64,000 nt of DNA from Lepidostoma basale (Eukaryota; Arthropoda; Insecta; Trichoptera; Lepidostomatidae). The translations under genes were made by a program, and so were the position numbers. The notes beneath the pieces are model-generated. The model ran no database searches, had not been told where the DNA came from, and was given only the letters and a program-made list of their open reading frames with translations. Numbering within the stretch: the stretch's first letter is position 1; every line of letters begins with the position of its first letter. Below, in pieces: positions 476 to 63,960 of the stretch. The stretch is from NCBI GenBank assembly GCA_022606425.2, contig JAHDVF020001030.1, forward strand, positions 545,001-609,000. Direction: 5' to 3'.

Positions 476-510
476 CTGATGATGAAGGTATGAAACCTAC
501 GAAACATGTC
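476..510 (+). ncRNA. hammerhead-like ribozyme motif, family hh-E
   Basis: The sequence reads CUGAUGA, one extra U, a GAAGG...CCUAC hairpin (one A-A mismatch), GAAAC, AU, GUC. These are the invariant core boxes of a type I hammerhead with a one- or two-pair stem III, and cleavage would be expected after the C at 510. The extra base after CUGAUGA is also seen in the other families here; a natural viroid hammerhead with an extra residue at that point is known. Stem I is partly lost in this copy: the downstream strand GAGAA (511-515) is intact, and its complement UUCUC survives in the related copy at 12339-12343. Flanking sequence to about 570 belongs to the same repeat. Activity is inferred only. 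Confidence 0.6.
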
Positions 511-689
511 GAGAAAAATAAACTCAAAAGTCGAAAAAAAAAAAACATTGTTTTATTCGTAAAAAAATAATGTTATTAATAAAAATAAATTGCTGCAAGT
601 TCGTTTTAAATAAAGAAAATAATGAAGTAAAATCCTATTCTAATATGTATTTAGTTTTATCCCGCTTGAATTTTAGCGTCGAGCGGTTT

Positions 690-735
690 TGGCAATTTAA
701 TGCCATCTTTTGGTCAACCAGTTGAAGCTAACAAT
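690..735 (-). repeat. degenerate hammerhead-like repeat, family hh-C
   Basis: On the minus strand a short hairpin with GGCA...UGCC arms is followed by AAAACC, matching the hh-C pattern of better copies at 58.87 and 59.11 kb. The core boxes are mutated, so this is only a relic. Confidence 0.45.
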
Positions 736-777
736 CAAGTGGAATAATATTCAATACATATATAATGAAGGATATTT

Positions 778-1005
778 AACTAACTAACTAACCATCACGC
801 CGTCTTCCCGAAGGGGTAGGCAGTTTTCTTTCCTGACATATTTCTCTCGCTTCCTCAACATTCATACATCGTGTCATGCACGGGCGTCGATTTCTCTGAC
901 TCCTCACATGGCCGACATTCAATTTTTGATTTATTTGATCGTGTCACGTTTTCCTCGGTCTTACTCTTTTTCTGGTTCCATTTACATTGTTAACATATAT
1001 TGGAT
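778..1005 (-). mobile_element. Rte-a 3'-end fragment, (GTTA)n tail
   Basis: Read on the minus strand this is the end of the Rte-a polyprotein (RGRPRKTW-like region to the end) followed by the GGCGTGATGGTTAG terminus and a TAAC/GTTA microsatellite at 778-793. It is truncated at about 1005, upstream of which nothing of the element remains. Confidence 0.8.
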
Positions 1006-1688
1006 ATTTCTGTTAAAAAATCGTTTTGAATTTTAAAAAATCATCACCAAAACAGAAATTAATTTTTAAAGTATCCTGAAATACACACATTATATATTAT
1101 AGGACTAGAATTTAATATATGGGTGTTCAAGGAAATAATTTGGGGGTGGTGTATCTGTATAGAAGGATGTATGGTTGAACGTAAGCCCCGAGCATATAAA
1201 CTCGTCGTAAAGCAGGTACATGCGACATTGTGATTAAACTTCTATACGAGTATAAATAATATATGGCGGGGGTAAACTTATCTTAGCTTTTTAAGGCAAC
1301 GGTGTTTACTGGCTGAAGTTAATGGGGAAATTGTGTTACCTTGTAAACAGAGCCATCACATCAGGTCGACCCTTTACGTTTGATGAATTAACGGGCACGG
1401 GAATTCCGAAGGTGACGACTCGGACTTACTTCTTGATGTCAAATTTATTATGCACTTTATTTAATACTATACCTTTTTTGTAAGATCACCGATAGAATAT
1501 CAAAGTAATTTATTAACCTTTTTAGTGCTCCTGGCTTCATTTACACGCAGACTACATTTGCAGCTCATGTATATTGTTTTCCTTTATTTTTTTCCAATAA
1601 TATGAATATTTATTTATTTCAATTTTTCTTTTTTATATAATTTGTATATACAACAATTTTATAATATTTTTATAAATATGTATCCTTA
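1006..1688. other. unassigned AT-rich interval with a short GC-richer patch
   Basis: I see no gene or known repeat here. The part from about 1130 to 1440 is less AT-rich and shows no repeat seen elsewhere in the window; 1620-1688 is the start of an hh-A repeat arm. Confidence 0.4.
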
Positions 1689-1801
1689 CTGAAATAGGAC
1701 TGTTTGTCCGAAACATGTCTATATAATTTTTTTTTTTTGATAAAAGTGTTGTATTATATAAAGTGTATAAAAAAGAAAAATAGAATTAAACCCATCATAA
1801 T
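1689..1801 (+). repeat. hammerhead-like repeat, family hh-A (left part)
   Basis: The core region 1689-1719 matches hh-A (GGAC-UGUUU-GUCC hairpin, GAAAC AU GUC), but the CUGAAGA box has decayed to CUGAAAU. The family tail (a TGTTGTA-containing stretch, then GTGTATAAAAAA, then CATCATAA) continues to 1801. There it is interrupted by an Rte-f insertion and resumes at 2316. Confidence 0.6.
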
Positions 1802-2315
1802 AACACAAAAATAACAGAGTCACATAATATAGACCTAAAACTGAGAATACTCCTCATCAAGACCTATGTATGGAGTGTCTTGATGTACGGCTGCGAAACA
1901 TGGTGCTTATCCGAAAGGGATAAGCGGAGACTAGAGGCTTTTAAGATGTGGTCCTATAGAAGACTATTAGGAATTTCCTGGAGAGACCACATCACGAATG
2001 AGGAATTTCTTCAAGGAATCGAAGGAGGAAGGTACCTGCTCAGGACCTTGTCCGAAAGGCGTGCAAGATGGATCGGCCATGTAATACGTCAAGAAGGTGT
2101 CTTGCATGCCATAATGAAGGGTATGACCGAGGGGACAAACTCTAGGGGACGCTCTCGCGGAGAGTACCTGGAGGACATGTTGGTGGACGTGCGCTTCTCA
2201 ACATATGCAGATTTCAAAAGAGCCGCACAAGACAGGGAAGAATGGAAGAGAAGAATAGAGGAAATTGCTGCAAACCAATCCCAGGATTGAAACCAGAGAA
2301 GAAGAACAACACAAA
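1802..2315 (+). mobile_element. Rte-f 3'-end fragment inserted in an hh-A repeat
   Basis: A frame open from about 1812 to the stop at 2288-2290 encodes the C-terminal tail of an RTE-type polyprotein. It contains LMYGCETW, then RRLLGISWRDHITNEE, then RRARWIGHVIR and a basic GRSRGEYLEDM stretch. This tail follows the reverse transcriptase in such elements and has no catalytic site of its own. The piece ends in GAAGAAGAAC and is bracketed by an 8-bp direct repeat, AACACAAA, at 1802-1809 and 2308-2315. The flanks join into an otherwise intact hh-A tail, which supports a real 5'-truncated insertion. It differs clearly from Rte-a. Confidence 0.75.
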
Positions 2316-5300: not shown

Positions 5301-5304
5301 TGTA

Positions 5305-5545: not shown

Positions 5546-5699
5546 TATATAAAAATACAGTTTGAAATAAAATTAATGTTGGCCACTGAAAATTTATTAT
5601 AAAAAAAAAACAAATAAAACTAATGCCACAAATAAGATGTGTAGATTATCAACAATGTTATATGTTATACTACGAGTATTTCAAGCAATTAAAACTATT

Positions 5700-6010
5700 T
5701 CTCTTTTTCTTTTTTATATACTTTGTATATACTCGTACAACACTTATATTAAAAAAAATAAAATAACATAGACATGTTTCGGACAAACAGTCCTTCTTTA
5801 GTAATACATATTATAAAGTTACATTTTTTTAAATATTAAAAAAAAAATTTACATGATCTGACAGATGTTATACAGAAGAAGGACTGTTTGTACAAAACAT
5901 GTCAATGTAATTTTATTTTTTAATATGAGTGTTGTATATACAAAGTATAAGAGTAAAGAAAAAGAGAAAAAAACATCATAACAACACATAGTATGGCGTA
6001 TAAAGAAGAA
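5700..6010. repeat. hh-A inverted pair (palindromic repeat)
   Basis: Two hh-A hammerhead-like cores face each other. One is on the minus strand at 5771-5801 (box CUAAAGA, GGAC/GUCC hairpin, GAAAC AU GUC). The other is on the plus strand at 5873-5903 (box CAGAAGA, hairpin and GAAAC decayed). Both are flanked outward by the same tail, with TGTATATAC and an AAAGAAAAAGAG stretch, ending in CATCATAACAACACA. Each core carries at least one mutation of an invariant base, so neither should be active. Confidence 0.65.
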
Positions 6011-8450: not shown

Positions 8451-8487
8451 TTTTCTAATTTTGCTTTTTTAACTTTCTTGTATATGT

Positions 8488-9823: not shown

Positions 9824-9825
9824 AG

Positions 9826-10429: not shown

Positions 10430-10620
10430 AACGATGTAAAACTCCATATTAACTCCATATATTTAACATGAATGAAAACGTCTCTCTTCTAGGAGTTTTA
10501 TTATAGATTAGATAGAATAACATGTTTCACCTTTCTACCATAAGCCATTATCAGATGTGACATTTGATAATGCCTTAGAAGGGTAAAACATGTCATAACA
10601 TCTAAAATACAATAAAACTT
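10430..10620. repeat. hh-F inverted pair
   Basis: A minus-strand GAAACAUGUU box at 10529-10540 faces a plus-strand motif at 10562-10594 (UGAUAAU, GCCUU...AGGGU hairpin, AAAACAUGUC). The outer arm has the hh-F signature ATGTAAAACTCCATATTA and GAATGAAAACGTCTC. Core boxes are mutated (UGAUAA for UGAUGA, AAAAC for GAAAC). Confidence 0.55.
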
Positions 10621-10621
10621 C

Positions 10622-12310: not shown

Positions 12311-12420
12311 CCAAAACCTTCATCATCGGTTTACATCGTTCTCCCGATGATGAAGGTGTAAGCCTTCAAAACATGTCCAGAAAAATAAACTCAAAAGTTG
12401 AAAAAACAATGTTTTAATTC
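12311..12420 (+). repeat. hh-E hammerhead-like repeat with partial inverted partner
   Basis: The core at 12344-12377 reads CCGAUGA, U, GAAGG...CCUUC hairpin, AAAAC AU GUC. Two positions differ from the canonical core. The upstream bases UUCUC (12339-12343) supply the stem I strand complementary to GAGAA in the 476 copy. A partial inverted copy of the same box lies at 12311-12329. Confidence 0.55.
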
Positions 12421-17861: not shown

Positions 17862-18005
17862 GAATAATGGTAATTATAATTGTAACCATCTTGTTTCTCT
17901 TGTACCCAAACTGCTTCGGGGCAATATAAGATCTTACATTCCTCTGATGAAGCTTGGTTACAACCGAAACTAGTTGGCTTTAATTATAATTACCATTTCT
18001 TGGTA
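17862..18005. repeat. hh-G inverted pair with one canonical core
   Basis: Arms (AATGGTAATTATAATTG and its complement) enclose two facing cores. The plus-strand one at 17944-17975 reads CUGAUGA, A, a GCUU-starting hairpin, GAAAC, UA, GUU. All core boxes are intact, and the cleavage triplet is GUU. The minus-strand partner at about 17892-17922 is decayed. The related pair at 33755-33895 has the same outer arm. Confidence 0.55.
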
Positions 18006-19438: not shown

Positions 19439-19473
19439 AAACATGTTTCGGGACACAGACTTCCCTTCTTCAG
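19439..19473 (-). ncRNA. hammerhead-like ribozyme motif, hh-A, minus-strand member
   Basis: On the minus strand it reads CUGAAGA, A, GGGA...UCCC hairpin, GAAAC, AU, GUU. All invariant core boxes are present. The cleavage triplet is GUU rather than GUC, which natural hammerheads tolerate but less efficiently. Confidence 0.55.
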
Positions 19474-19501: not shown

Positions 19502-19535
19502 CTGAAGAAGGGAAGTCTGTATCCCGAAACATGTT
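19502..19535 (+). ncRNA. hammerhead-like ribozyme motif, hh-A, plus-strand member
   Basis: It reads CUGAAGA, A, GGGA...UCCC hairpin (one loop base different from its partner), GAAAC, AU, GUU. In the same RNA the two facing copies would pair with each other, which may compete with ribozyme folding. Confidence 0.55.
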
Positions 19536-20668: not shown

Positions 20669-20675
20669 TATTATT

Positions 20676-20800
20676 ATAACACCTGATGATGTCAACATAG
20701 GTTGTCGAAAGAGCTGTCGCGTAATTAATGTTTTAATTTAACAGTTCATAACGTTAAAGTATCATAGTATTTTGGCCAAAACAATGGACTATTCAAAAGT
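20676..20800 (+). repeat. hh-D repeat
   Basis: The core at 20683-20718 reads CUGAUGA, U, GUCAAC...GUUGUC hairpin, GAAAG AGCU GUC. The first box is intact. It is followed by the family tail with GTATCATAGTATTTTGGCC and AAAACAATGGAC. The base after GAAA is G instead of C, which weakens stem III. Confidence 0.55.
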
Positions 20801-23007: not shown

Positions 23008-25533
23008 CTATTTTAAAGCTCCATTCACTTTGTTACCCGCACCAACCCTTCTTTCGACGTCACTATCCGTTCGGGCATCTGCTGTGAACATACTACCTAA
23101 ATACACAAATTCCCTCACCTGTTCCAAGTTCTCTTCGTTCACACTTATATTACAAACTGTCATTTGCTCTTCCCTTTCGAAAACCATCACCTTTGACTTT
23201 CCGACATTCATCATTAAATCATTTGACTTGCATACCTCATTCATTCTCGACACCAAGACTTGTAATTCGTCCGCACTATCCGCAACGAGAACGGCATCGT
23301 CCGCGTAAAGCAGACAGTTTACAGACAGATCACTCATCTTAGCACCAGCATTTATACCTTTAAGTTCTTTCATACACTTGTCCATATACAGATTGAACAA
23401 CCATGGAGACATCACGCAGCCCTGCTTAACACCCTTCGTGATATCAAACCAAGGCGTGATGTCTCCATTTACCCTAACACTGGCAGTGCTCCCTTCGTAG
23501 AGAGAAGCAACCGCCCGTATCAGTTTTGTGCTCACTCCGTATTCGGACAAGATTGACCACAGTTTATCTCTGTTCACTCGATCATAGGCTTTTTGCAAAT
23601 CGACAAACGCACAGAAAAGCTTACGGTTTTTGGCCATAAACTTCTCCGCAAGCGTTCGAAGTGCAAAAATCTGATCCATACATCCTCTTCCGGTCATAAA
23701 AGCGCCTTGAACATCCCATACTCTTTCAGTCGTCGTCTTTTTTACTCTTTCTATTAAAATTCGGCCGTAGAGTTTACCAACGGCGCTTAACAGACTTATT
23801 GCCCGGTGATTTCCGCAGTCCATACGAGACCCCTTTCCCTTATATAGAGGCATGATAACAGCCCTCCTCCAGTCGAGCGGCGTATATCCTTCCTCTAAAC
23901 ACTGGTTAAAGAGTCTGTATAACCACGCTGCAACAACCGGCCCACCGTTTTTAATAAACTCCAAAGCGACACAATCATAACCAACAGCTTTTCCACCTTT
24001 CATACAGCTTACAGATTTTACTATTTCGTTCAAACTTATTTCTGTCATATCTCTTTCGCTATTCGTGCAACTCACATTTGTAACGCTCCTTCTCATTGAA
24101 CTCTCAGTCATTTCACTGCCATATACATCTTTAAAGTATTCCATCCATCTTCCTTGTATACTGTCAAAATCAGTAATCATTCTTCCCTCACAACTCAAAA
24201 TTGCTTTCGCACAACCATTTTCGGGAGGATTCCGGGCCTTTTTGACTTCCTTCCAGAACATTTTTATGTTGCTCTGAAAGTGACTCGTCATCTTGAGACC
24301 GTCTTCCTCCTTCAGTTTATCCTTTTTCTCTCTCACTTTCAACTTGACATTCATCTTACAAACTTTGTATGCTTCTTTTGCTCTTTTATATTTCTCGCAA
24401 TCTCTTTTATCCACAGATATCATATTTAACCATGCATCCTTCTTTTCTTTGACCAGAATTTTTACACAGTCATCCCACCAAGCATCTCCATTCCTTCTTC
24501 CTTGCACACATGTACCACATACCTCTTTCGCTGTTTCACATAGACTTTCTTTCAATTTGTTCCAGATCTCGTCTATACTTATAAATTCAGATTCTCGACC
24601 ACTCAGCCTCTCATTCACTTTCGTCGTATAACTCTCTTTTACGTCATCGATTTGGAGTTTTTCTATTTTAACTCTAGACGGGGCGGTCACTGTTTTGTTC
24701 TTCTTGGTGCGCCAACCTCGGAACAGGTTTATCTTTGTCACCACCAAAAAATGGTCAGTTCCGAGTTCGGCCCCTCTGAACACTCTGGTATCTACAGTGT
24801 CCGTCCGTAATCTAGAGTCAACGATGACGTAATCGATAGTCGTCCTTTCATTCCCTCTCTCCCATGTATACTGATGGATCCTCTTATGATCAAACATCGT
24901 GTTTGACACAAAGAGGCTCCACTCCAGGCATACACCAAGCACTCTCCTTCCATTATCGTTCGTCCTACTATCACCATACTTACCGAGACATTCTTCATAA
25001 CCAGTCCTTTGGATTCCTACCCATCCATTCAAATCTCCTGCTAAAATAATTCTTTCGTTCACGTTCTTACTCGCTGCTATCTCGTTTACACTATCCCAGA
25101 ACTCATCTTTCACAGCTTCATCTTCGCTATTAACAGGAGCATACCCAATTATGAGTAATACTCTTGTCAATCCAATTTTGAAGCGGATCCACATCAATCT
25201 AGGACTTATACATTCGTATCCTTTCATACATTCTACCATCCTTGGAGCTAGAATCGCTGCCACACCCTGACCTCCCCTTTGTTCTTGTGATACCCCTGAC
25301 CATAAGATGAACTTATTATCATGCTCTCTAGATCCGCACTCTTTAACCATGCATTCAGTCACACACAAAATATCCAAACACTTGTTATTAAATTCATCGC
25401 ACATCTCACTTAACTTCCCTTCCATACCTCCTCTAATATTCCAAGTACCAATGCGGCACTCCACTCTCCTCTGTTCGCCCCCGCGGAAAATGCAACGTGA
25501 TGGGTGGCGAACCTCATCGCCGTCTCTAAGCAT
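23008..25533 (-). pseudogene. Rte-a endonuclease/reverse transcriptase (main frame)
   Basis: The protein nicks target DNA with an N-terminal AP-endonuclease-like domain and copies its RNA onto the nick. The first ATG is at 25533; an in-frame TAG a few codons upstream limits the start. Residue numbers count from a TTG at 25542, three codons upstream. Endonuclease: TWNIRGG with Asn35, Glu63 (VTEC), GDLNG with Asp170 and Asn172, YTW near 226, IDYV at 236, TDH at 262-264. Reverse transcriptase: HRAISLLS, FVDLQKAYD (Asp648), GVKQGCVMSPWLF, YADD at 746-749, then VREFVYLGS. The frame ends at TAG 23008-23010 after NKVNGALK, where other copies continue, so the C-terminal quarter lies in another frame. 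All catalytic residues I can check are present. RTE group is likely; the exact clade is not settled. Confidence 0.88.
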
Positions 25534-25556
25534 TTCCCACAACCACTAAAATCTAC

Positions 25557-30984: not shown

Positions 30985-31150
30985 ATGCTTTGTTTTTACA
31001 ACATTTTTTTTTGTTTTATCGAACGAACCGTTTCGCTCCCGCCAGAGCTTCATCCGGGTTACAAAAATAAAATTTGTTTTTTGTAATGCTGACGATGCTC
31101 CGGTAGTAGCGAAACCCTTTGGTTCGATAAAATAAAATAAAGTGGCCTAA
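30985..31150 (-). repeat. hammerhead-like repeat, family hh-H
   Basis: On the minus strand at 31025-31057 it reads CGGAUGA, A, GCUC...GAGC hairpin, GAAAC, GG, UUC. Only the first box departs from CUGANGA (position 4). A sister copy lies at 57590-57640. The flanking arm has ACAACATTTTTTTTTG. Confidence 0.5.
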
Positions 31151-33754: not shown

Positions 33755-33895
33755 ACACTGTATGGTTATTATAATTGATGCCAACTCGTTTCGCTTGGAC
33801 CTAAGCTTCATCTGGGCAGTATAATGACGGCTATTATATTGCCCTAATGAAGATTGGATCCAAGCAACACTAGTTTGCGTAAATTATAATGACCA
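33755..33895. repeat. hh-G inverted pair
   Basis: Outer arms GGTTATTATAATTGA and its complement enclose two cores. The minus-strand one at about 33782-33816 reads CAGAUGA, A, GCUU...AAGC hairpin, GAAAC, GA, GUU. The plus-strand one at about 33845-33880 (UAAUGAAGAUUGGAUCCAAGCAACACUAG) is decayed. Only position 4 of the first box deviates in the minus copy. Confidence 0.55.
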
Positions 33896-35583: not shown

Positions 35584-38331
35584 TTAATACATAAGAGATA
35601 GATGCTTTCTGAGGGTAGCCTCACTATCGTGAAAAATATCCACATCCGAAGAGATGCGGTTTAATAGGATTATTGCCCTGCCCACGGGCATTACCTTAGG
35701 TAGATTGGTTCTACACAGTGGCAGGTGAAATAATCTATGTTGCCTTTGTCGCAGATAATTGTCGGGGACAAACAAAGTCAAGTCATTCAAAATATCAGAG
35801 TTATGTATTCGACCACGAATCAGTTGAAAAAAATGAACACCCAGGTGGATGGTTCGTCTAATTTCCAATGATTGGTAGTCCAGCATACCCAGCAAGAAAT
35901 CAGTTGGGTACAGCCAGGGATAGTAACCGTTCTCTTTAAGGTACAGAAATCGTAAGAATTTTTTCTGTACCTTCTCGATTAATAGACAATATTTTGTTTC
36001 ATGCGGTGCCCACACCAGTGTACTAAATTCCAACCGACTTCTTACCAAGGAATTATACAATAACTTCAGGACTTTTGAATTTTTAAAATCCTTTCCATTC
36101 CTAAGAACAAATCCCAAAATCTTTTGGGAGCTATTACATACTGATGTAATATGAAGACTGAAAGATAATTTGGGATCGAATGTAACTCCCAAATCTTTCG
36201 AAGAAACAGTCCTATCCAGTAGTATATCATCCATTGTATAACTGTGATAGATCGTTGTGCGAGCCCTAGTAAAGGACATGATGAAACACTTCGATATATT
36301 AAAATGCAATTTATTTATTTTACTCCATTCCAAGACACTGTGTATGTCATCTTGGAGTTTTAAACAATCGGCGACAGATTTAATTTCTCGAAAAATTTTC
36401 AAATCGTCGGCAAACAAGAGACTATTGGAATATTTGATATTTTTAGTAATATCATTTATAAAAATTGTAAATAATAACGGCCCTAGGATGGAACCCTGAG
36501 GAACTCCAGATGGTGTGAAGAACTTACTGGATTGGAAGAGTCCATAAGTTACGAACTGTTGTCTTTTGGAAAGATAGCTATTAAAAAATTGGACTAAGGT
36601 GTCACTTAGACCAATTTTACGAAGTTTTACTAAAAGAATCGAATGATCAACTTTGTCAAAAGCTTTTGAAAAATCACTGTATGCAGAGTCAACTTGAAAA
36701 CCTTTATCCAGGGATTTTGAGACGTAGTTTGTGAACACCATAAGATTTGTATTGGTTGAACGTGCCGGTCTAAAACCATGTTGCTCATTAATCACGAAGG
36801 GTTCAATTTTTGGATTAATAAGTGAATGGATTAATGATTCGAATGCCTTAGCAGGAGCTGACAATATTGCAACTGGTCTGTAGTTTTCCACAGATGATTT
36901 GACACCTTTTTTGAAAACTGGGGAAATTTTCGAAGTTTTCCAGAGTTCAGGAAATACACCTTTTTTCAGCGACATATTAAAAATTACCGATAATGGATTT
37001 TTAAGTATGTGATTACAACCTTTGAGAATAAATGTGGGAACGTAATCCGGACCCTGAGATGTAGTATTTTTAAGTCTTGAAATTGACATAAACACGTCAT
37101 TTTCGTCAATATGAGAAATGGAAATATCCTGGGCTCCTTGGTGTGAGATATCACAATAACTATCAACGACATTTTGCGAAGAGGAAACGTTATAAACAGA
37201 ACGAAAGTTGTCTGCGAAAGCATTTGCAACTTCAGAATTTTGCACAGTCTGTCCTCGCCATGTCATAGAATCAATGATTCCACCATCCTGACGTTTGGAC
37301 TTTATATATTTCCAAAAGTATTCAGGATTGTGAAGAATATTCGATTCCATTTCGGCGATATACGACTTGTATGCAGACTGTACATTACGTTTCACGATAG
37401 CTCGATACTGACTAAAAGAATTGTAATCATTCGAACTACCCGAAGACTTCCATTTTTTATGGTACCGATGCTTTGTTTTGATATCGCCGACGATCTCTCG
37501 AGTAAACCACTTCGGATATCGCCTTCCACTAACAGCCTGGGCTTTCCTCGGAAAACATCTATCGAAACACGAGTACAGTAAATCATAAAAAGAGTTAACA
37601 GCATCATTCACATCCGTTGCCATCCCAATACACTCCCAGTTGATTTGGCTCAGTGTTTCATAAAAGTGAACAAAGTCTCCATTGGCAAAATTCCACCCTC
37701 TCCATGACACTGTATTCACGGATGGTACATCCGTACGAGTCCGCAGCGACTGGTAAGTGTATTCAAATTGTAATGCGGGATGGTACGGATCTTCAGATGT
37801 AAGGGGAGATTCGCTTCGAGAAACGGATATCGGAGTAGTTGACAATATTAAATCTAAGACGCGATCTTTAGAATTAAGAATGTCATTATACTGAGTGAGC
37901 CCCAAAACTGAGCACAAGAAATTGAGTTCGATTGTAACTCCGTCCTGAACCGAGTGCATGTTAAAATCTCCCAGTATAATAACACGCTTGTTTGCAAATA
38001 AATGCGCATTCGAATAAATATTATTAAAGAATATGTTATAACTCTCCGGACTACTGTGTGGAGGAAAATACACCACACATAAAAATATCGTAATGTCTCT
38101 ATACGATAACTTCAGCCAAAGGTCTTCATTAATGGTTTCTAAAGCAGACAATCTTTGAATATTCAAATATTGTCTGTTTCGCACCGCCAATAAACACCCT
38201 CCGCCTCGTTTATGCGCAATTGCAGAGGATTCACGATCTCTTCTATAAACCGAAAAGTCATTAGTGAAGAGTTCCGAGTTGAGAACGCTTTCACTAGCGC
38301 GAGAGACAGAAGGAGTACGCGCTAGGCCTAG
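35584..38331 (-). pseudogene. CR1-type ORF2: endonuclease (start missing) and reverse transcriptase
   Basis: The frame is open from after the ORF1 stop to 35584 with no internal stop. Residue numbers count from a TTG at 38190. Endonuclease part: FSVYRRDRESS and RGGGCLLAVRN upstream of that TTG, then GDFNMH (Asp75, Asn77), RVLDLIL, and EDPYHPAL in place of the usual SDH. The first strands carrying the catalytic Asn and the ETWL Glu are absent, since only about 22 residues lie between the ORF1 stop and the NSELF word that should follow ETWL. Reverse transcriptase: ENYRPVAILS, DFSKAFDKVDH (Asp506), SGVPQGSILGPLLF (561-), FADD at 593-596. The C-terminal RQRQHRLFHLP...RTNLPKVMPVGRA domain is complete. 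The reverse transcriptase looks intact, the endonuclease does not. No ATG is obvious near the start. The clade is CR1/Daphne/Kiri- or Jockey-like. Confidence 0.85.
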
Positions 38332-46870: not shown

Positions 46871-47684
46871 TGCCTGTTTTACTGCTTTGTTTTTGGCATG
46901 AATTTTGTTTTATTTACATTAATTTATAATCCAACTTCTTTGGATGACATCACAAAACAAAAAAGTTTTCGGCTAATTTATAAAAATCATTCTTTGTTTT
47001 TTATCGATCACACATCTCCAGTATTTTTTCTAAAGAAATCTTGCTCCAAGTGCAAAGTCTATCACAGAGCTCGTAAAAATAATCGGAAAACACTCTGAAA
47101 GGATGAATTTCGCATTGAAATTTCTAAACAGAACGTACACGGAGAAAGTATTGAAAAAGTCTTGTAAAGTACAAGAGCAGACTCGTCTCATATAAAAATT
47201 GTGGGGAATAAAGAAAAACAAGTTGCTTGACATAAAGATATGCAATCTGTAAAGGTTTTATTTTGACTAATTATTAGACCATTTTCAAAAAATAAATATT
47301 GAATTCAATTAATTTAGTATAAAATATTCATAAATGACTGACGTACTTTCTAAACATATATATGACCCTGTAAATCAGCGTAAAAACGTTTCTTGGATAA
47401 CTTGTAATACTTAAATAATATTTATAACTGCAGAAATATTTTGATAAACCAAATATGATATTTTTCCTCTTCTACGTATCAATGACATTAAAGTTGTATG
47501 TATTGCAGAGGTGGCGCTAAAATGTGTTCTCCTCTTTTTATCTTTCCTTTGCCTTGGGCCGACTTTTTTGTCATTTCCAGGGGCGCCGGATGCTGTAGTT
47601 TTAATAACACCACACGTGTAGGCACCTGCTTTACCTGTCAATATAATATTAAGGATGATATTCATCTATCTAACATATTATTAT
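46871..47684. other. interval without a recognisable gene; shared module at 47490-47640
   Basis: The bases 47510-47600 (GGCCGACTTTTTTGTCATTT, CCAGGGGCGCCGG) resemble 3595-3650, an unnamed dispersed repeat. The rest is AT-rich. Confidence 0.4.
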
Positions 47685-48082
47685 CAGCCACCATAGTGAT
47701 GTCTATCTATCCCCTCAAGACCAGCCACTTGGATGAAATCTATCTAGCATCTTACGACCAGCCACTAGCGTGAAATCTATCTAATTCTTCATGGTCTGCC
47801 ACTAGCGCGAAATCTATAAAGACCCTATCAGCCACAAGTATGAAATCTATCTAACTCCTTACGACCAGCCACCAGCGTGAAATGTATCTAGCCCCTCATG
47901 ACCATCCACTAGCGTGAAATCTATCTAGTCTCTTCTGACCGACCACTAGCATGAAATATATTTATCTAGTCCCTCGTAACCCCAGCCACTAGCCTGAAAT
48001 CTATCTAGCCTCTTCTGACCGGCCACTAGCATGAAATCTATCTATATAGTCCCTCGTAACCCCAGCCATTACCGTGAAATTG
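47685..48082. repeat. minisatellite, about 10 units of about 37 bp
   Basis: Units follow the pattern CAGCCACTAGCGTGAAATCT, ATCTAGCCCCTCATGAC. Unit length varies (33-44 bp). The last units form a higher-order pair of period 80 bp (the word TCTTCTGACC occurs at 47931 and again at 48011). There are more than five stops per unit set in all frames, so it is not coding. Confidence 0.88.
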
Positions 48083-48739: not shown

Positions 48740-49015
48740 AATTGCATTTTATTTGACGCGACAGCTATTTCATCATCCAATGTTGACATCATCAGGTGTA
48801 ACAATGTAGAATTTCATAAGTCCGAATTATTTTTTAATTAAAACACTATTATTTCACATTCGACTATATTTTTCTCAAAATGTTTTGAAGGCACCTTCAT
48901 CATGCGTAAAATAAAATACAATTGTGATACAAAAAACAAAGTTTATTCATTAACAGTTTAAAATGTTAAGGTGTCATAGTGTTTCGGCCAAAACAATGGA
49001 CTATTTAATTAATTC
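48740..49015. repeat. hh-D repeat with an hh-E repeat nested in it
   Basis: The left hh-D part holds the minus-strand core at 48760-48795. An hh-E relic occupies about 48815-48935 (minus strand: AUGAUGAAGGUGCCUUCAAA ACA, then UUGAGAAAAAUA). The hh-D tail (AAGGTGTCATAGTGTTTCGG, CCAAAACAATGGAC) resumes at about 48950. Confidence 0.55.
48760..48795 (-). ncRNA. hammerhead-like ribozyme motif, family hh-D
   Basis: The minus strand reads CUGAUGA, U, GUCAAC...GAUGAU hairpin (one A-A mismatch, one G-U), GAAA, UAGCUG (short stem III), UC. Core boxes are intact. Stem I beyond GUC (GCGUCAA) pairs partly with the upstream GUUACAC. Among the hh-D copies this one has the fewest core changes. Confidence 0.48.
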
Positions 49016-50149: not shown

Positions 50150-50450
50150 TGTGTTGTAGATGCTTTATTTCTCTTTTTGTTTATATACATTGTATATAGG
50201 TACTACACTTACATTTAAAAAAATAAAATTACAAAGACATGTTTCGGACAACCAGTCCTTCTTCAGTGATACACATTATAAAGATACATATTTAAAATAT
50301 TATAAAATTGTTTACATTATCTGATAGATGTTATAAAGATTTATTAAAATAAATCTTTATAACAAACAAACACGTCTATGTAATTTTGATTTTTTTAATG
50401 TTAGTGTTATTTATACAAAGTGTATAAAAAATAAAAAGAGAAATATTATT
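50150..50450. repeat. hh-A inverted pair, one intact core
   Basis: Arms with TATATACATTGTATATAGGT and AAAATAAAATTACA enclose the intact minus-strand core at 50236-50266. A plus-strand partner at about 50360-50400 is reduced to ACAAACACGUCUAUGUAAUU. Confidence 0.65.
50236..50266 (-). ncRNA. hammerhead-like ribozyme motif, hh-A, canonical core
   Basis: The minus strand reads CUGAAGA, A, GGAC-UGGUU-GUCC hairpin (four perfect pairs), GAAAC, AU, GUC. Every invariant base of the hammerhead core is present, with the extra A after CUGAAGA shared by the whole family. Stem III would be C-G plus A-U with a two-base loop, the very short type seen in Penelope-like elements, which are thought to need dimers for activity. 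Stem I is weak as read here. Confidence 0.6.
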
Positions 50451-51929: not shown

Positions 51930-51983
51930 TAATTAAATAAAACGATGTTTTTTAACTACTTCCACTTTTGTCTTTATTTAGAC

Positions 51984-52022
51984 AGCGACCGGTTTCGCCA
52001 GGCTTGCTGGCATTGACAGACT
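51984..52022 (-). repeat. hammerhead-like motif in Penelope terminal repeat (hh-B)
   Basis: The minus strand reads CUGUCAA, U, GCCAG...CUGGC hairpin, GAAAC, CG, GUC. The second half is canonical, but the first box has U and C where hammerheads need A6 and a free N7. It is therefore hammerhead-like, not canonical. The mirrored copy at 52898-52936 (plus strand) has CUGUCGA and GAAC (one A short). Confidence 0.5.
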
Positions 52023-52399
52023 GGTAACACTATTGTAAACTTAGTCCTTTATAAACATACAGATCAGGGGTGGTAAACATGATTCTATACAAAAATAATC
52101 TTCAAATATTTAAGTAAAATTTTTCTGAACTATTGGTATTACAGGTATTCTTGGAGGTTCGTATTTAATACAATGGGTTTTAATTTTTATTATCTCATAC
52201 ATATTCATATATAATGTTTGAAAAAATGGTAATTTTGTTTTAATTATTACTAAATTTAAATATTATGTGTTATAGTTCTTGGTCCGTAAGGTTGGCCTCG
52301 CCTTATTCGGTTTTCCCCATCCATAAAGCTGCTAGGGTCTGGAATCAATCAAAAACACATTTTGGGCAGTAATCGATTCCAGGAATATTTTTTATTTAT

Positions 52400-52900
52400 T
52401 TATATGGGGTATAGCAACGGGGAGTGCACAAACAGTAGTTGGTCATTAAGAACTACTTGGTCAGGGGTATTGTATTTTAGCCTATTTATTTCTAGAATTT
52501 CTAATTTGTCTAGTTTTTGACTTTTTGGGCATTTATGCAAGATTTTAGCGTTTTCGGTTGGGTTAAATGTATGATTGTTTTCAATAAGGTGGTTAGCAAA
52601 ATTAGAGTTCGTTTTATTATTTCTCCAACTTTGTACATGTTCCCCGATTCTAGTTTTGAAGGTCCTTCCTGTTTGGCCTACGTAACTTGCAGGACACGTA
52701 CTGCAGTTAAGTATGTATGTGCCTGAATTTTGCATATTATCTTTTTTATCTTTATTGTTTACAATTAGATTTCCTAAGGTTTTATTATTATAAAACGCTG
52801 TAATGCAGTTTTCTTCTTTTAAAACGCGTTTCAATTTGTTATTTATATCACCTATGTATGCTGTCTGTCGATGTCTGTCGATGACAGTGTTACCAGTCTG
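52400..52900 (-). pseudogene. Penelope-type GIY-YIG endonuclease domain
   Basis: Penelope-like polyproteins end in a GIY-YIG nuclease that nicks target DNA. The minus-strand frame, open from 52948 to 52400, shows a GTYILNC (GIY) strand at residues 76-82, SYVGQTGRTFKTRIGEH with YVG at 89-91, Arg97-Arg100 and His104, FANHLIENNH near 117-126, and Glu150/Glu153 as candidate metal-binding Glu. A CxxC pair (STCP, 83-86) is typical of the family. The first 30 or so codons are translated terminal-repeat sequence, not protein, and the nominal start is TTG. The reverse transcriptase that should precede the domain is absent. Family assignment is firm; function of this copy is unlikely. Confidence 0.85.
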
Positions 52901-53040
52901 TCGATGCCAGCGAGCCTGGCGAACCGGTCGCTGTCTAAATAAAGACAAATGTGGAAGTAGTCAAAAATCATCGTTTTATTTAATTATTATTTAAAATGAA
53001 CTTCCATCAAGAGATTTCAGTAAAATCATTTGATTATCTT

Positions 53041-53639: not shown

Positions 53640-54355
53640 TAATATTTAAATAAACGATGTTTTTTAACTACTCCCACTTTAGCATTATTTCGACAGCGAC
53701 CGGTTTCGTCAGGCTCGCTGGCATCGACAGTCTGGTGACACTATTGTAAACTGAGTATTTTATATATAATACATACAGATAAGGGGTGGTAATCGTGATT
53801 CTACATAAAAATAATCTTCAAATATTTATGTAAAATTTACTGATTTTAAATATTGGTATAATATGTATTCAAGACGATCCATATTTAATACAATGGATTT
53901 AAAATTTTATAATAGCTGACAGATTTCTATTTAACGTTAAAAAACTTGGTACTTTTTTTATTATTACCGAATTTAAATAAAATATGTTATAGTTCCTTGG
54001 TCCATAAAGTTGGCATCGCCTTATTCAGTTTTCCCCATCCATATAGCTGCAAAGGTCTGGAATCAAACAAAACAGTTATTCGGCAGTCATCGATTCCAGG
54101 AATACGCTTTATTTGTTTATATTGGGTAAAACAAAGGGGAATAAGCAAACAGTAATTGGTCATTAAGGACTACTTGGTCAGCGATGTTGTACTTGAGCCT
54201 ATTTATTTCTAAAATTTATATTTTATCTATTATAGTTCTTAGTTTTTTGGGCATGAATGTAAATTTTTAACATTTTCAGATGGATTAAACATCGTTTTAC
54301 TTAATTATTATTTCAAACGAACTTTCATCAAGAGATTTCAGTAAAATCATTTGAT
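53640..54355 (-). mobile_element. Penelope-like element remnant, second copy
   Basis: It begins with AATAAACGATGTTTTTTAAC and the GACAGCGACCGGTTTCGTCA hammerhead-like module (minus strand, 53692-53730, CUGUCGA...GAAAC CG GUC). It continues through 3' sequence alignable with 51.98-52.40 kb and the decayed end of the GIY-YIG frame (54120-54290), and closes with the outer arm (AACGAACTTTCATCAAGAGA) at 54300-54355. It is a deleted copy of the same family. Confidence 0.75.
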
Positions 54356-55244: not shown

Positions 55245-55595
55245 AAGTTTTATTATAATTTATAGAAATGACATATTTCACCATTCTATTTTTTCGCCTT
55301 ATAAATGCGAGTTAAACGACCAGGCTATTTACTTTAACCCATGTTTATAAACAAAAACGCGCTTGATTTTTGCTTCTTCTTTTAATAGATCTGATGATCT
55401 GTGATACAGAAATCATATCTCGTCGGATGATGAGATCCAGCTGTCCCTCCATCTCTTAGGCGGTCTTCCAGGTGGGCGGTGTCCGGAGGGGATTTTATAA
55501 GCGGCTTTTGAAATCCCCCCCTCCCCACCGATTTTTGCTACATTTGAAAATACCTAAGAGAGGCGAAACGTGTCATTCAGATAAACTTCTAAAAA
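55245..55595. repeat. hh-F relics around an Rte-d fragment
   Basis: The hh-F left half (GAAATGACATATTTCACCAT, 55265-55285) and right half (AAUACCUAAGAGAGGCGAAACGUGUC, 55550-55576) flank a minus-strand Rte-d C-terminal scrap at 55372-55505 (PPGRP/RWxD-type words, GAAGAAG end). The order suggests the scrap inserted into an hh-F pair. Confidence 0.45.
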
Positions 55596-55904: not shown

Positions 55905-56110
55905 AATAATTAAATAAAACGATGTTTTTTTAACTACTTCCACTTTTGTCTTTATTTAGACAGCGACCGGTTTCGCCAGGCTCGCTGGCATCGACAGACT
56001 GGACTGGTAAATAAAGACAAAAGTGGAAGTAGTTAAAAAACATCGTTTAATTTAATTATTATTTAAAATGAACTTCCATCAAGAGATTTCAGTAAAATCA
56101 TTTGATTATC
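55905..56110. repeat. solo inverted pair of Penelope terminal modules (hh-B)
   Basis: The left module (TTAAATAAAACGATG...GACAGCGACCGGTTTCGCCA, CTGGCATCGACAG) is followed after ACTGGACTGG by the mirrored AATAAAGACAAAAGTGGAAG, AAAAAACATCG. Nothing of the protein remains. The minus-strand hammerhead-like motif spans 55959-55998. Confidence 0.7.
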
Positions 56111-56689
56111 TTAAAAAGGGGATTATGAGTTTATAATTACATAATATGTTTATATCGAAAGCAAACGTTTTTTAATATTTATTGTACTTACTTAAAACTT
56201 TTAAGAGCTTCGCAGAACACAATCTGGATGCAGCTCCGCCCGTATATTCGTGGGCACACCCTTGCCCCTCACCCCCAACCCCAGTACCCCAACCGTTCTG
56301 GAGACATACACGCAATGCAACAAATCCCCTATACTATGACCCAAGCAACCAACTGAATCAAAGGATTTCAACTCTTGTTAAAGTTCATCCTATTTGTGGT
56401 CCATTTTTGTTGCGGATATTTCGTATTCTCCGTTAACCCCGACAAAGGTTTTCATGTGAAATCGACGGGATTTAAACTCGCAAAGTTATATTTACTATTC
56501 TACATTCAAAATATTATATCGGTTGTTCCTGTTAATAATATTAAATGAAGAGTAAAACATAAGTTTCTTTAAACCTTTGTTATAATTGAGGGAGAATTTT
56601 TAATTTAAATCAATTTTTAAAAATGTTCAAACGAATGTGTTATTTTAAACGTTTTTAATTCAACGTTTATTTTTTCTTTGTCTCTTTTT
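56111..56689. other. interval without a recognisable gene; C-rich patch about 56210-56440
   Basis: An 84-codon frame at 56182-56436 is proline-rich because of CCCC runs and shows no domain. I would not call it a gene. Confidence 0.35.
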
Positions 56690-56893
56690 TTATACACTTG
56701 GTATTTACAACACTTTTATTAAAAATAAAATTATGTAGACATGTTTTGGACGAACAGTCCTTCTTCAGTAAAGATACATATTTAAAAAATATTATAAAAT
56801 TGTTGTTGTTTACATGATCTGACACATCTATCATCTTAGTAGATCATATAAACAACAACAATTTTAAAATATTTTTATAAATATGTATCTTTA

Positions 56894-56924
56894 CTGAAGA
56901 AGGACTGGTCGTCCGAAACATGTC
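56894..56924 (+). ncRNA. hammerhead-like ribozyme motif, hh-A, canonical core (first copy)
   Basis: It reads CUGAAGA, A, GGAC-UGGUC-GUCC, GAAAC, AU, GUC. All invariant bases are present. The upstream UAUCUUUA and downstream UGUAUA give only four of six stem I pairs. Confidence 0.6.
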
Positions 56925-57097
56925 TGTATAATTTAATTTTTAATAAAAGTGTTGTAAGTACAAAGTGTATAAAAAACAAAAATAGAAAGCAACCATCATA
57001 AAATTGTTGTTGTTTACATGATCTGACACATCTATCATCTTAGTAGATCATATAAACAACAACAATTTTAAAATATTTTTATAAATATGTATCTTTA

Positions 57098-57128
57098 CTG
57101 AAGAAGGACTGGTCGTCCGAAACATGTC
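57098..57128 (+). ncRNA. hammerhead-like ribozyme motif, hh-A, canonical core (second copy)
   Basis: Identical to 56894-56924, one duplication unit (204 bp) downstream. If the region is transcribed as one RNA, two same-sense cores in tandem are the arrangement thought to let short-stem-III hammerheads act as dimers and release a unit-length RNA of about 204 nt. Confidence 0.6.
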
Positions 57129-57239
57129 TGTATAATTTAATTTTTAATAAAAGTGTTGTAAGTACAAAGTGTATAAAAAACAAAAATAGAAAGCAACCAT
57201 CATAACACCACAAAGTATGGCGTATATAGAAGAAAAGTT

Positions 57240-57424
57240 TATTTTTTAAATGAAAGAATCCATAATTTTCGTGGAAACCTACAAACTGATAATTTCTTCT
57301 TTATAAATATGATAATTCTACTTAAACAAGAGAAAATTCTACTTTGGTATGAAACACTTAATTTGGGGTGTGGTATTATTAAAAATAAACCTTTAAACAC
57401 ATTTACTAGTTTTAACACCACTTT
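57240..57424. other. short AT-rich interval
   Basis: Nothing recognised. Confidence 0.3.
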
Positions 57425-58839: not shown

Positions 58840-59165
58840 GTGCTTCCACTTGTGTTTATGTTCGATCGGTTTCGGCAGCTTGCTGCCATCTTCTGGTCAG
58901 AAGTACGGGTCTTCTGATCGGCGAGTCTTCATTTCTGTGGTTCTTAGGATACTTTTTGTTCTGATGGTGTCAGCTCTCGTTTCTATTCGATATGTCACTA
59001 TAGGACGTACGCATGTCTTGTAGATTCGAATAATATTTTGTAGATTCGTCATGTACTCGTAGATTCGAATAACTGTATAATATATATTTAGTTTAATTCG
59101 TCTAAGGTCTACGACCGGTTTCGGCAGCTTACTGCCATCTTCTGGTAGATCTTCGATTTAAGACG
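58840..59165 (-). repeat. two hh-C hammerhead-like repeats
   Basis: Two minus-strand cores, at about 58866-58900 and 59112-59147, read CAGAAGA, U, GGCAGC/GCUGCC-type hairpin, GAAAC, CG, AUC or GUC. In hh-C the second base of the first box is A where hammerheads need U4. The second copy keeps GAAAC CG GUC intact. Confidence 0.55.
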
Positions 59166-60615: not shown

Positions 60616-60821
60616 AAATAAAAATACTGCATTCAAACATTTTATTCTTATTTCGTCCTCACAAGTAAGATTTCAAATTTATTTACTTGGATTATTGAAC
60701 TTGATAAGACAAATGAAAACATATTGATAATAATTTATTGTGAGATTCCTCACGAGCAGTTAAAGCTGCCCATTTCTGTTTTCCAAATCAAATTTATCAA
60801 TAATAACAGATTTCGTATTTC

Positions 60822-61055
60822 CCAGTCTGCATCGCTCAGGGCGCACTAGACTGGTCCCCTATGGGGGGAAAGAGAAAGCGAGGCAGACCTAGAGCCACCT
60901 GGAGAAGAACCCTTTAGGACGAGGTTAAGGCAGTAGGCCTCACTTGGGATGATGTTAAGCATCAGGCATGCGATAGAGTCGGGTGGAGATAATTCCTTGA
61001 GGTCCTATGCACCACGGGGTGTGACAGGACAAAAAGAAGGAGAAAAAGAACAGAT
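60822..61055 (+). pseudogene. Rte-e C-terminal fragment, inverted copy
   Basis: CIAQGALDWSPMGGKRKRGR, then PRATWRRTL-stop, then EVKAVGLTWDDVKHQACD, then RVGW, ending CACCACGGGGTGTGACAGGA, AAAGAAGGAG. It is about 80-90 percent similar by eye to 60335-60555 read in reverse. Confidence 0.7.
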
Positions 61056-62019
61056 TTCGTTAAGTTTATACCATAATGCTTATACAAACCTTCGTCCATC
61101 ATTTTTTTTATAAAATATCTAAATTTAAAATTCGTATTTTTCTAATCTGGAAAAAACAACGGGAAACCACTCCAGTAACACTCCTCGGGAAATCACTGTG
61201 GTGAGAAAGCGTGGTGAGCGCGTGGTGAGAAATCGTGGTGAGCGCCAACGCCAGAGAGACTTGAAGAGAAGAGAAAAATATTTTACTTATAAGTTAAAAA
61301 TAATACAAAATTTAATTGATACTATTAACTTTTAGGTTTATTTTATTGCATTAATTTAGCGACGATTCCTGCGAGCTTCTTGTATTCTCTGTTACGGCAG
61401 CCCGGATGTCTGGCGATCTAGACATAAAATTTCATTTACCGGAAAAGAATAACGTCACACCGAAACGTTGGTACTACTGCCAGCGTTCTGGGCTATGAAA
61501 TTACAATCTCGCGCCATTATCTGACAGATGGGACGGTTGACCGCCGCAGTTAAACTTTAATTCATTTCGAGATCACCAAGAAGCCCGCAGATTCCATTTC
61601 AATTCAGGAACAAAGTCGAGGGAGGTCAGTGAGGATTTCAAAAACAATACATGATACATATGTGCTTACAAACTATTCACTGTCCCAAAAAATTGAGGAT
61701 TTAAATATTCATTATGATATTTTTCTCTACTGTTTCGTATTGAAAAAAAAAATCTTGAATTTTAATGTTATTATGAGTAATCAGCAACTTCCACATTATT
61801 AGGCTTTGTTGACTTGCATAATTATCAAACCCTTTTCTCTAATAAATCATATTTAAACCTTTATACAATTTAAATAATATAAAATAAAAATAATTACAGA
61901 GAACTAATTATTAATACGAAAGAAAACGTCTATTATCTAGAAATTTAATTATATTATATTACTGTTAAAACTAAAAACACTGACATAATATCACAATTTG
62001 TTTTTATTGATGTTGGCAT
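61056..62019. other. interval without a recognisable gene; GC-richer island about 61170-61640
   Basis: The island contains a short direct repeat (GTGGTGAGCGCGTGGTGAGA, then AATCGTGGTGAGCGC; 61198-61246) and is otherwise single-copy. A hh-F outer arm (AATACGAAAGAAAACGTCTA) lies near 61915-61935. Confidence 0.4.
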
Positions 62020-62205
62020 CATCATCATCAGGTGTTACATAATTATTGTAACACCTGATGATGCCAACATCGGTTAGCGAAACAGCTATCGCTACACTCT
62101 CAGTGTATTAAAAGTAATTGTGGTATTATAACAGTGTTTTAAATTTTAACAGTAATAATGTTGGAGTATCATAGTGTTTCGGCCAAAATAATGGACTTTT
62201 ATAAT
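62020..62205. repeat. hh-D inverted pair
   Basis: A minus-strand half (GTTGGCATCATCATCATCAG, 62023-62042) faces the plus-strand core at 62055-62090 (CUGAUGA, U, GCCAAC...GGUUAGC hairpin, GAAAC, AGCU, AUC). The cleavage triplet is AUC, so stem III is weakened. The hh-D tail (GTATCATAGTGTTTCGGCC) follows. Confidence 0.6.
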
Positions 62206-62635
62206 TTATGTACTTAAATGACTTTTTTTGTCTTTCTAGATATTGAAAATGATTATTCAACATAAGGTGTTCGTTTGAGAAACAATGATATTATAGGTAA
62301 TAAAACGAATACTTAATTAATATTATAATGTCCATCTTCTTTCATTAAAAATATTATAATATAATATAAATGGGTATTTTCAAATATATTTGTAAACTAT
62401 TTTGCAAATAGTATATTATGTTCATTTGTTTGTAGATTTAATGACATTGGTTTGTTATTTTTTCAATAGCAAATAATAAAATAATTAATATTTATTAAGC
62501 ATCTATAAAAACGTCCATTTTTCAGAAGTGTTAATATATGCACCATCAAATGTTCCGTGTTGTAATGCATTTTTGAACTTCTAGTAAACGCACTTTTTTT
62601 TTTAATAAAATAATTTTACATTTTGATTTTTTTTA
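62206..62635. other. AT-rich interval
   Basis: Nothing recognised. Confidence 0.35.
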
Positions 62636-62955
62636 ATTTATACAAATACTTGTAGACAAATACAGGATTTACCCATTACGGGTTAATCATTAAAGATTAA
62701 TTGTATCTCAATAGAAATTATTTGGAAACAGAATATGGTAGTCGAAGCGTTTACAGGACTTATGACCTGACATTGGTTGGGTTAAGCGATCGCTTTGTGT
62801 AATATAACAATCCCCATTCCGCCCTTCTTACGATCACCTCGTCTGACAATTATTATTGGAAGATGTATATATGCTACTACGTTGAGAAACACTTCACATG
62901 TTTTAGTTCAATCTACACTAGCGCCATTCCATTTTGTAGTTTTACGTCACTAGCC
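62636..62955. mobile_element. palindromic MITE, family M, copy 5
   Basis: ATACAAATACTTGTAGACAA, then TTGTATCTCAATAG, then CAGAATATGGTAGTC, then CTTATGACCTGACATTGGTT, then CAATCTACACTAGCGCC. The right arm is incomplete. This copy is uninterrupted where copy 3 holds a CR1 insertion. Confidence 0.65.
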
Positions 62956-63719
62956 GAAAAACGATAAATAAAACTTATTTTTTATTTACATCGTACTCTA
63001 GCATTAAAATGATTCCTTCTTAGCAACCCTTCGAAATGGAAGGAATAAAACATCAGCCACAAAAGTAATGTACGAGTATACGAGTATGTCCCGATTCAAT
63101 TATCGCCGTCTTGCTCCGCCCGGCGCGCGGTGCGGCGCGGGGCGACAAGAGAGACATTCCAGAAGGAGACACCGACGATTTGTCACAATCTGAAATTTGA
63201 TATTTTAATTAAAACCAAAGTTCCGCCCTCACCCGGCCCTCGCCAGCGCGCCGAGTTGCGCTGTTGAACCAATCGTAATTTATTCATGGGATAACTTTGC
63301 AGGCGCGTCAATCCTGAAGGCCCTTTGATACATGTAAAGGCTCAACTTTGAAGGGCTAACAAGCTTGTCTTTGACGTTTACGTCATTTTTTACCAAATTC
63401 AACACGTAAACACTTTTATCCGTAAGCTTATTATCATAATTTGGCGTCTGGTGGGATCCCCGCCGCGGCTATCCACTCGCTGCGATGTTTGATGTGGCCA
63501 TTTACCTAATTGTTATTCTCGCCCTTTCACTTCGCTTAAAAACATATTTTTCAGATGTTTTAACTTTTGAAATATACGTTAAACACCTTTCAAAAATTTG
63601 CATTATACGTACGATTTTTGACATATCAATACATACTCGTATTGATATGTCAACAAATTATTGCTTTTTGTTTAAATTAAGAAACACAATTAGAAGTATC
63701 ATATTTTTTGGTATTTTCA
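62956..63719. other. GC-rich single-copy island about 63080-63490
   Basis: The longest GC-rich single-copy stretch of the window. It has CpG-dense words (CGGCGCGCGGTGCGGCGCGG) and no convincing frame. A 109-codon frame at 63485-63814 runs into an hh-D repeat and is not a gene. It could be a conserved noncoding or regulatory element of a neighbouring host gene. Confidence 0.4.
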
Positions 63720-63960
63720 GAAGAATGTCGCTACAGCTGTTTAACTCACCTACAATGGCATCATCAGGTGTTACAAATAACTGTTGTTTGTGTCACCTGA
63801 TGATGCCAATATAGATTGCCAAAACAGCTGTCGAAACAATATCATTAAAAAAATTGTAGTACGTAAATTACAACGTTTCAAAATTAAAACATTTAAGAAT
63901 GTTGTAATATACGTATCGCAGTGTTCGGCCAAAGCGGATTTTATGATTGTTACAAAAAAA
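63720..63960. repeat. hh-D inverted pair
   Basis: The minus-strand core at about 63737-63772 (CUGAUGA, U, GCCAUUGUAGGUGAGU, UAAACAGCUGUAGC) faces the plus-strand core at 63797-63832 (CUGAUGA, U, GCCAAU...AUUGCC hairpin with one C-C mismatch, AAAAC, AGCU, GUC). The first boxes are intact in both. The G of GAAAC is lost in both. The hh-D tail (TATCGCAGTGTTCGGCCAAA) follows. Confidence 0.6.

Follow-up and report, generated by a model that had tools for sequence, protein, structure and literature searches.

Hammerhead-type RNA motifs with an extra core base, probably carried by Penelope-like elements, in Lepidostoma basale

Several repeat families in a 64,000-nt stretch of the trichopteran Lepidostoma basale (contig JAHDVF020001030.1, positions 545,001 to 609,000; this whole stretch is hereafter the window, and the genome comprises 768.8 Mb in 1572 contigs) follow one plan despite their different hairpins: a CUGANGA-like box, one additional base, a hairpin closed next to GAAAC, a short segment and GUC or GUU. 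What are these repeats, and what carries them? A sequence-only reading had taken them for type I hammerhead ribozymes with a minimal stem III, a form linked to Penelope-like elements (PLEs). Minimal type I hammerheads of PLEs were reportedly described by Cervera and De la Pena in 2014 and by Luense, Weinberg and Breaker in 2017. The analysis presented here confirmed the observation and supported its interpretation. The repeats are very probably worn copies of a self-cutting RNA motif that is carried by PLEs and is very abundant in this genome, and the motifs themselves are, with a similarly high degree of confidence, PLE hammerhead-type RNAs, in which helices I, II and a reduced III surround a conserved core with an extra A or U.

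Motif families, fold and covariation

A covariance model was built from 26 hand-picked rows (alignment A2), most of which came from descriptor matches that had to have AC/GU at helix III and four or more stem II pairs; because these features were required when the rows were chosen, stem II and the two outer helix III pairs are not independent tests. The letters of stem I and of inner helix III were not required, and the descriptor allowed C or T at position 3 and G or A at position 8 in any combination. The model was searched against the window, 200 kb elsewhere in the genome (twenty 10-kb pieces of seven large contigs picked for convenience) and viral controls, and some of the genomic matches are training rows. 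At E<=0.01 it identified 33 matches in the window (51 at E<=5) and 45 in the 200 kb elsewhere. No match at E<=0.01 was found in the viral controls (23 contigs, 217,720 bases, picked for holding the bare consensus), the best one scoring 17.4 bits (E 0.25). As a rough extrapolation, 45 matches per 200 kb scale to ~170,000 motif copies genome-wide. Self-BLAST of the window with 12 seeds gave 35 non-overlapping matches from 451 to 63833, some of them with poor motifs. Genome-wide pattern counts on the two strands amounted to 5045+4903 = 9948 for family A, 1198+1189 = 2387 for family K and 2418+2514 = 4932 for family M with up to 3 mismatches, and to 8489+8705 = 17194 for family N with up to 2; reversed control patterns for these four families had no genome matches.

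Some sixteen motif families exist side by side in the genome, several of them with near-identical copies. Family letters were reconstructed from the hairpin arms quoted in the sequence-only reading, which had listed families A to I; eight of these remain, since E and G are one family with GUUGGC and AAUUAUAAU downstream in both, as seen by self-BLAST. Families A and D have in common CUGAAGAAGG, GAAACAUGU and a GUGUUGU end. The window thus holds families A, B, C, D, E/G, F, H and I together with N-like copies at 10556 and 55536. Families A, D and P seem to be related, and K and Q have a common box.

Read 5' to 3', the motif consists of a stem I strand, core positions 3 to 9, one extra base, a stem II hairpin that usually has G first, GAA, helix III (A-C...G-U), a cleavage base (C, U or A) and the second stem I strand. 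The plan was recovered at 50236-50266 (-), 56894-56924 (+) and 476-510 (+). The type I order and the reduced stem III proposed earlier hold, and stem I, which had been overlooked, is present as well: among 16 family representatives the first two stem I pairs are formed in 28 of 32 cases against 13.6 expected, and 0 of 100,000 shuffles, in which 3' flanks were swapped among families, reach 28, a count that overstates significance owing to some dependence among the families. Five or six leading pairs are found in C, M and P. Stem I positions are paired in 22, 19, 17 and 11 of the 26 rows of A2, and these counts are lowered by the misaligned stems I and III of rows F, M and O. For stem II, 98.1% of cells are paired in A2 and three of four pairs are altered on both sides; the cell count and covariation score exceed all 500 shuffles, the measures of both-sides change and of additional pair types show no excess, since 346 and 181 of the 500 attain them, and the covariation is partly selected for, as stem II had guided the choice of most rows.

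The letters between GAA and the cleavage base form a perfect palindrome in 14 of the 16 representatives, the exceptions being family F, with a 3-pair hairpin, and family O, with neither hairpin nor palindrome. The palindromes, ACAUGU, ACCGGU, ACUAGU, ACAGCUGU and ACAAAUUUGU, have no fold in cis and pair with a second copy at a computed -4.6 to -11.1 kcal/mol, so that stem III amounts to two pairs in cis in most families and to 6-10 if two copies pair. All three helices of a hammerhead are therefore found. A palindromic helix III suits dimers, as described for PLE hammerheads (PMC7761336) and amphibian ones (PMC7229834).

The core is strictly intact (C3 U4 G5 A6 N7 G8 A9 / G12 A13 A14) in 9 of 16 representatives (A, D, E, F, I, J, K, P and Q) and in 12 of 16 if U3-A8 is allowed. 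The CUGANGA-like box is not always intact: single deviations are present in B and L (A6U, giving CUGUCGA in B), C (U4A, giving CAGAAGA) and H (U4C). The claim of a constant additional base was borne out. It sits between A9 and stem II and is A or U in all 78 matches of the model to the window and the 200 kb; 19 of these are training rows, and the 59 held-out matches have A or T there in every case, although the extra-base column is a model position and the matches are biased towards containing it. A descriptor scan of the window and the 20 other 10-kb pieces (264 kb) was compared with simulated sequence. An intact CTGANGA box was found once with no extra base, 15 times with one and never with two or three, against 0, 0.2 and 0.6 in simulation; boxes with one mismatch and 0, 1, 2 or 3 extra bases numbered 3, 14, 7 and 4, against 5.2, 2.8, 4.2 and 3.0. 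The enrichment is therefore confined to the one-extra-base class.

Positions 3 and 8, which form a tertiary pair in the active hammerhead fold (PMC3088659, section 8), are C-G in 13 representatives, U-A in three (M, N and O) and mixed in none, an unmixed split that has a chance of 1 in 560 at these margins if the families are independent. Model matches comprise 45 C-G, 21 U-A, 6 C-A, 2 U-G and 4 other combinations among all 78, and 30, 17, 6, 2 and 4, respectively, among the 59 held-out ones. When both positions were left free in the descriptor scan, the one-extra-base class held 15 C-G, 9 U-A, 1 A-U and no C-A or U-G, against 1.3 simulated in this class, and the remaining classes held one C-A, one U-A and one U-G with two extra bases, along with two A-G and a single A-U; we judge the A-G, C-A and U-G matches to be chance or worn copies. 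Among the ~100 copies listed for each family, 3 lack U3 and 2 lack A8 in M, and 7 lack A8 in N. Covariation as a sign of RNA structure, which the earlier reading had seen in the hairpin arms, is accordingly found in stem I at the family level, in core pair 3-8 and, partly selected for, in stem II.

Penelope-like carriers and insertion ends

The link to PLEs is direct for families B, K and M. A window frame at 52400-52948 (-) encodes a GIY-YIG domain (PF01541, E 7e-7) and represents the 3' end of a PLE; a protein search with this fragment gave 7 relatives with 42-50% identity, and a genome search reported 151 matches, with 150 of 5134 candidates scored. All three longer frames, of 758 (B), 873 (K) and 831 aa (M), were found through this query and contain RVT_1. 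GIY-YIG is above the Pfam cutoff in the 758-aa frame and at 21.0 against a 22.6-bit cutoff in the 831-aa one, and it was not reported by Pfam for the 873-aa frame, though the GIY-YIG query had found that locus. Motif B stands outward-facing on both sides of the 758-aa frame (L065), and motif K lies 41 nt past the 873-aa frame (L066). Uninterrupted 831-aa PLE frames form a tandem array with a period of 2954 bp (L064, G000:C502:8300-15300; equal spacing in C308), and motif M, with U3-A8, was seen by eye in its 0.46-kb spacer. Exact K copies listed include 32 outward-facing neighbours and 2 same-direction pairs 2709 bp apart, and no inward-facing K pair within 5 kb was present among them.

Where the carrier is identifiable, the motifs are the pseudo-LTR (pLTR) ends of PLEs and often form outward-facing pairs. 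For B, K and M this location was observed in elements with a PLE reverse transcriptase and GIY-YIG, and the features characteristic of PLEs were found: RVT_1/GIY-YIG, inverted pLTRs with a short tail, target duplications and tandem copies. A start-codon tail, CACAAAGT-ATGG, is carried by 10 of the 24 arms of K, by 6 of the 22 of A and by none of 103 arms of ten other families; it therefore links A to K only, and the unrelated flanks once ascribed to the families are not fully right. The PLE carrier is thus established for B, K and M; for A it has the support of tail homology, and for the rest it is presumed, no direct tie to a PLE frame having been found for C, D, E/G, F, H, I and N.

Most credible insertion ends in the families measured are located 50-76 or 90-119 nt beyond the predicted cut, the second arm being longer by 38-46 bp, and target duplications are 11-16 bp. 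An optional tail on one inverted pLTR is a known PLE feature (PMC3846280). Among nine outward-facing K pairs, the direct end match is located 54 nt beyond the cut for all but one of the short arms and 92 nt beyond it for every tail arm. The 12-16-nt target-duplication words place the short K end at 50-57 nt, except for a truncated arm with a value of 30, and in 8 of 9 pairs they put the tail end at 90-97 nt; the ninth tail value, +114 (L072), we take for a chance word. In family B, 5 of 6 distinct pairs have ends 56-63 and 105-107 nt past the cut (seven rows represent six pairs, L053 and L062 being one place, and the sixth pair is a microsatellite), and in family M one of two pairs has ends at 76 and 119. 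Two of eight A rows are credible, namely L002, with ends at 68 and 100, and the insertion at 56676-57236 in the window, with ends at 62 and 108; among the others, four have short words at implausible places and two have no words. The narrow distance from cut to insertion end ties the ribozyme to the start of reverse transcription.

Function and rival explanations

The fold, its covariation, its location and the insertion geometry are the demonstrated parts of the proposed explanation. Two copies in a tandem transcript would pair through the helix III palindrome, and the paired copies would cut after GUC, GUU or GUA, trimming multimers to unit length. Cutting would probably be slow, owing to the extra base and the weak helices, and perhaps restricted to RNA with PLE protein bound: removal of the extra residue of a viroid hammerhead raised its cleavage (PMC11014351), and protein assistance is considered possible because the ribozyme of the Anolis element PAc did not cut without protein (PMC11167929). 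The reverse-transcribed template must be either uncut RNA, as PAc suggests, or cut RNA joined into a circle, and not a fully cut linear unit, because each measured insertion holds sequence past the cut. Outward-facing pairs would be single insertions from the PLE integration process and not ribozyme products. A further scheme, which we regard as distinctly unlikely, would place a slow, dimer-gated ribozyme in one module with two reverse-transcription (RT) start sites, the extra base being an evolved brake that spares the template; paired pLTRs would be cut, a host ligase would close the circle and the circle would be copied. Circle copying, if true, would explain both the insertions that run past the cut and the head-to-tail arrays of exact period.

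Several results weigh against a cutting hammerhead. Helix III is barely present in cis, and stem I is weak in some families, with one leading pair in A, two in N and E/G and none in H and O. Family B has A6U despite being young, its best GIY-YIG matches mostly showing 94-97% identity, and family C carries U4A in the window copies seen; a related variant, A6C, had low activity in the measurements of Perreault et al. (PMC3088659). No Rfam hammerhead match reached the gathering level in the window, and none was found at E<=10 in the window and five loci, contrary to what the sequence-only reading would have led one to expect; this may be due to models that expect a real stem III and no extra base. 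Matches to Rfam microRNA models fell below gathering scores and were taken for artefacts of long inverted repeats. A first motif scan of intact tandem copies found none in L064 and L067, because the core there is U3-A8. Finally, the PAc ribozyme did not cut in vitro in the absence of protein and was dispensable for insertion in vitro, and transcripts ending at its cut site were not detected (PMC11167929).

It is conceivable, if rather less probable, that the fold is a landmark of PLE RNA, such as a protein-binding or RT start module, that derives from a hammerhead and is no longer kept for cutting. The core substitutions in B and C, the constant place of the motif near insertion ends and the dispensability of PAc cutting in vitro (PMC11167929) would suit a landmark of this kind. 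However, the paired swap from C3-G8 to U3-A8 preserves a tertiary pair of the active hammerhead fold (PMC3088659), 71 of the 78 model matches retain G5 and 76 retain A9, and the changes in step of pair 3-8 and stem I across families argue for selection on the active fold. Families with core substitutions are natural test cases for the need to cut. The inverted, outward-facing pairs and their target duplications could also be read as terminal inverted repeats of a MITE or foldback DNA transposon, with an incidental resemblance to RNA. We consider this very improbable and reject it on account of PLE frames between or beside the arms, the longer tail on one arm that is typical of PLE insertions (PMC3846280) and direct tandem copies at 2709 and 2954 bp; terminal repeats are also not expected to produce covariation in stem I and the core pair. 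That the motifs are mere chance matches in AT-rich DNA has a negligible probability, even though the bare consensus does occur in 23 viral-contig stretches: none of these reached E<=0.01 with the model, the motif is enriched over simulated sequence, and the genome counts of the four families contrast with zero for each reversed control. Chance was rejected on these controls.

A viroid hammerhead with an extra core nucleotide was reportedly described by De la Pena and Flores in 2001. One extra core residue in such a hammerhead, which the sequence-only reading had cited as a precedent, is indeed described (PMC11014351); there it belongs to a viroid ribozyme, whereas here it is constant across many retroelement families. 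Minimal hammerheads in PLE pLTRs, with thousands of dispersed copies and expected dimers, are established (PMC7761336, PMC6155905), and a PLE hammerhead-type RNA of the present kind agrees with them in these respects as well as in its type I order and reduced stem III. As compared through reviews, it differs in two ways: every family seen has an additional A or U separating A9 from stem II, and three have U3-A8. The literature searched, as far as its accessible portions go, holds no statement of a constant extra base in PLE hammerheads, two primary papers on these being outside its reach; the AUG of a published PLE hammerhead may correspond to A9, an extra U and G10.1, in which case PLEs may have the extra base in general. 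A 2020 review called the role of PLE hammerheads unknown (PMC7761336). Natural hammerheads with the same U3-A8 swap were reported by Perreault et al. in 2011 (PMC3088659, section 8), whereas here it is close to fixation in PLE families counted at 4932 and 17194 places.

The Anolis PAc element, of the Poseidon group, is likewise a PLE with GIY-YIG, and its hammerhead lies upstream of two RT start sites, the stretch between which is its tail (PMC11167929). The distance from cut to RT start, 85-92 nt when subtracted from the published numbers, resembles the 90-97-nt tail ends of family K. The PAc hammerhead overlaps the start of the open reading frame (ORF); the first ATG of family M is 83 nt past the cut, and that of the K tail, presumably a start codon, is ~75 nt past it. 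Metazoan retrozymes also have type I hammerheads in short AT-rich repeats (PMC7229834), but these are tandem non-coding units of ~170-400 nt, unlike the PLE pLTR arms found here, which have PLE tails and in some cases PLE frames. A retrozyme assignment, which calls for non-coding tandem monomers of 170-400 nt, was rejected; among the tandem repeats of the window, a single 204-bp duplication holds the motif.

Copies in the window and neighbouring features

The family A insertion at 56676-57236 has outward-facing pLTR arms and is flanked by an 11-bp target duplication, GTTTATTTTTT, at 56665-56675 and 57237-57247; its right, longer arm bears the start-codon tail, with ATGGCG at 57217. The left arm contains a hammerhead with G12A at 56729-56776 (-). 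The copy at 56894-56924 (+) has an intact core, stem II GGAC/GUCC and helix III ACAUGU, and its duplicate lies at 57098-57128 (+). A perfect 204-bp tandem duplication at 56794-57205, which copies one ribozyme motif exactly, is either recent or an assembly effect. Further A copies are located at 50236-50266 (-), with an intact core, and, in worn form, at 5762-5809 (-), with an inverted partner at 5865-5912 (+), and at 1681-1728 (+). Family D is represented by an inverted pair, with the left arm at 19440-19473 (-) and the right arm, with stem II GGGA/UCCC and a 4-bp stem I, at 19502-19535 (+).

Family B occurs at 55956-56005 (-), with box CUGUCGA, at 51978-52027 (-), downstream of the GIY-YIG frame and in the same sense, at 52890-52938 (+), inverted and overlapping the upstream end of that frame, and at 53689-53738 (-). 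The copies of family C are at 59104-59152 (-), with box CAGAAGA and a 5-bp stem I, and 58855-58903 (-), and those of family E/G at 17944-17975 (+) and 33783-33814 (-), the latter with stem II GCUU/AAGC and box CAGAUGA. Family F is present at 31089-31124 (+), with helix III ACC/GGU and a CUUU loop, and as its inverted partner at 31017-31064 (-). Family H is found at 476-510 (+), with a worn stem II GAAGG/CCUAC, and at 12336-12386 (+), with box CCGAUGA and stem II GAAGG/CCUUC. Family I copies lie at 48751-48803 (-), 20675-20727 (+), 62047-62099 (+) and, weakly (E 0.019), 63789-63841 (+), whose inverted partner is at 63723-63775 (-) with E 0.23.

Hammerheads with U3-A8 are located at 10556-10603 (+), assigned to family N, and at 55536-55583 (+), which is N-like. 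Outside the window, family N copies at L039:1401-1482 and L034:8286-8381 are tight palindromes with a junction close to the ribozyme core, so that their two motifs nearly abut, and L039:2538-2656 holds a family L pair with identical motifs and box CUGUAGA, making L a second A6U family. Other window features include a 136-aa open frame at 1880-2290 (+) with no Pfam match, presumably resembling the end of a non-LTR reverse transcriptase, and a degenerate minisatellite at 47682-48080 with units of ~37 bp. Long non-LTR retrotransposon frames of 868 and 844 aa are present at 35584-38190 (-) and 23008-25542 (-), with matches to RVT_1 and to an endonuclease-type Pfam family, the first being below its cutoff.

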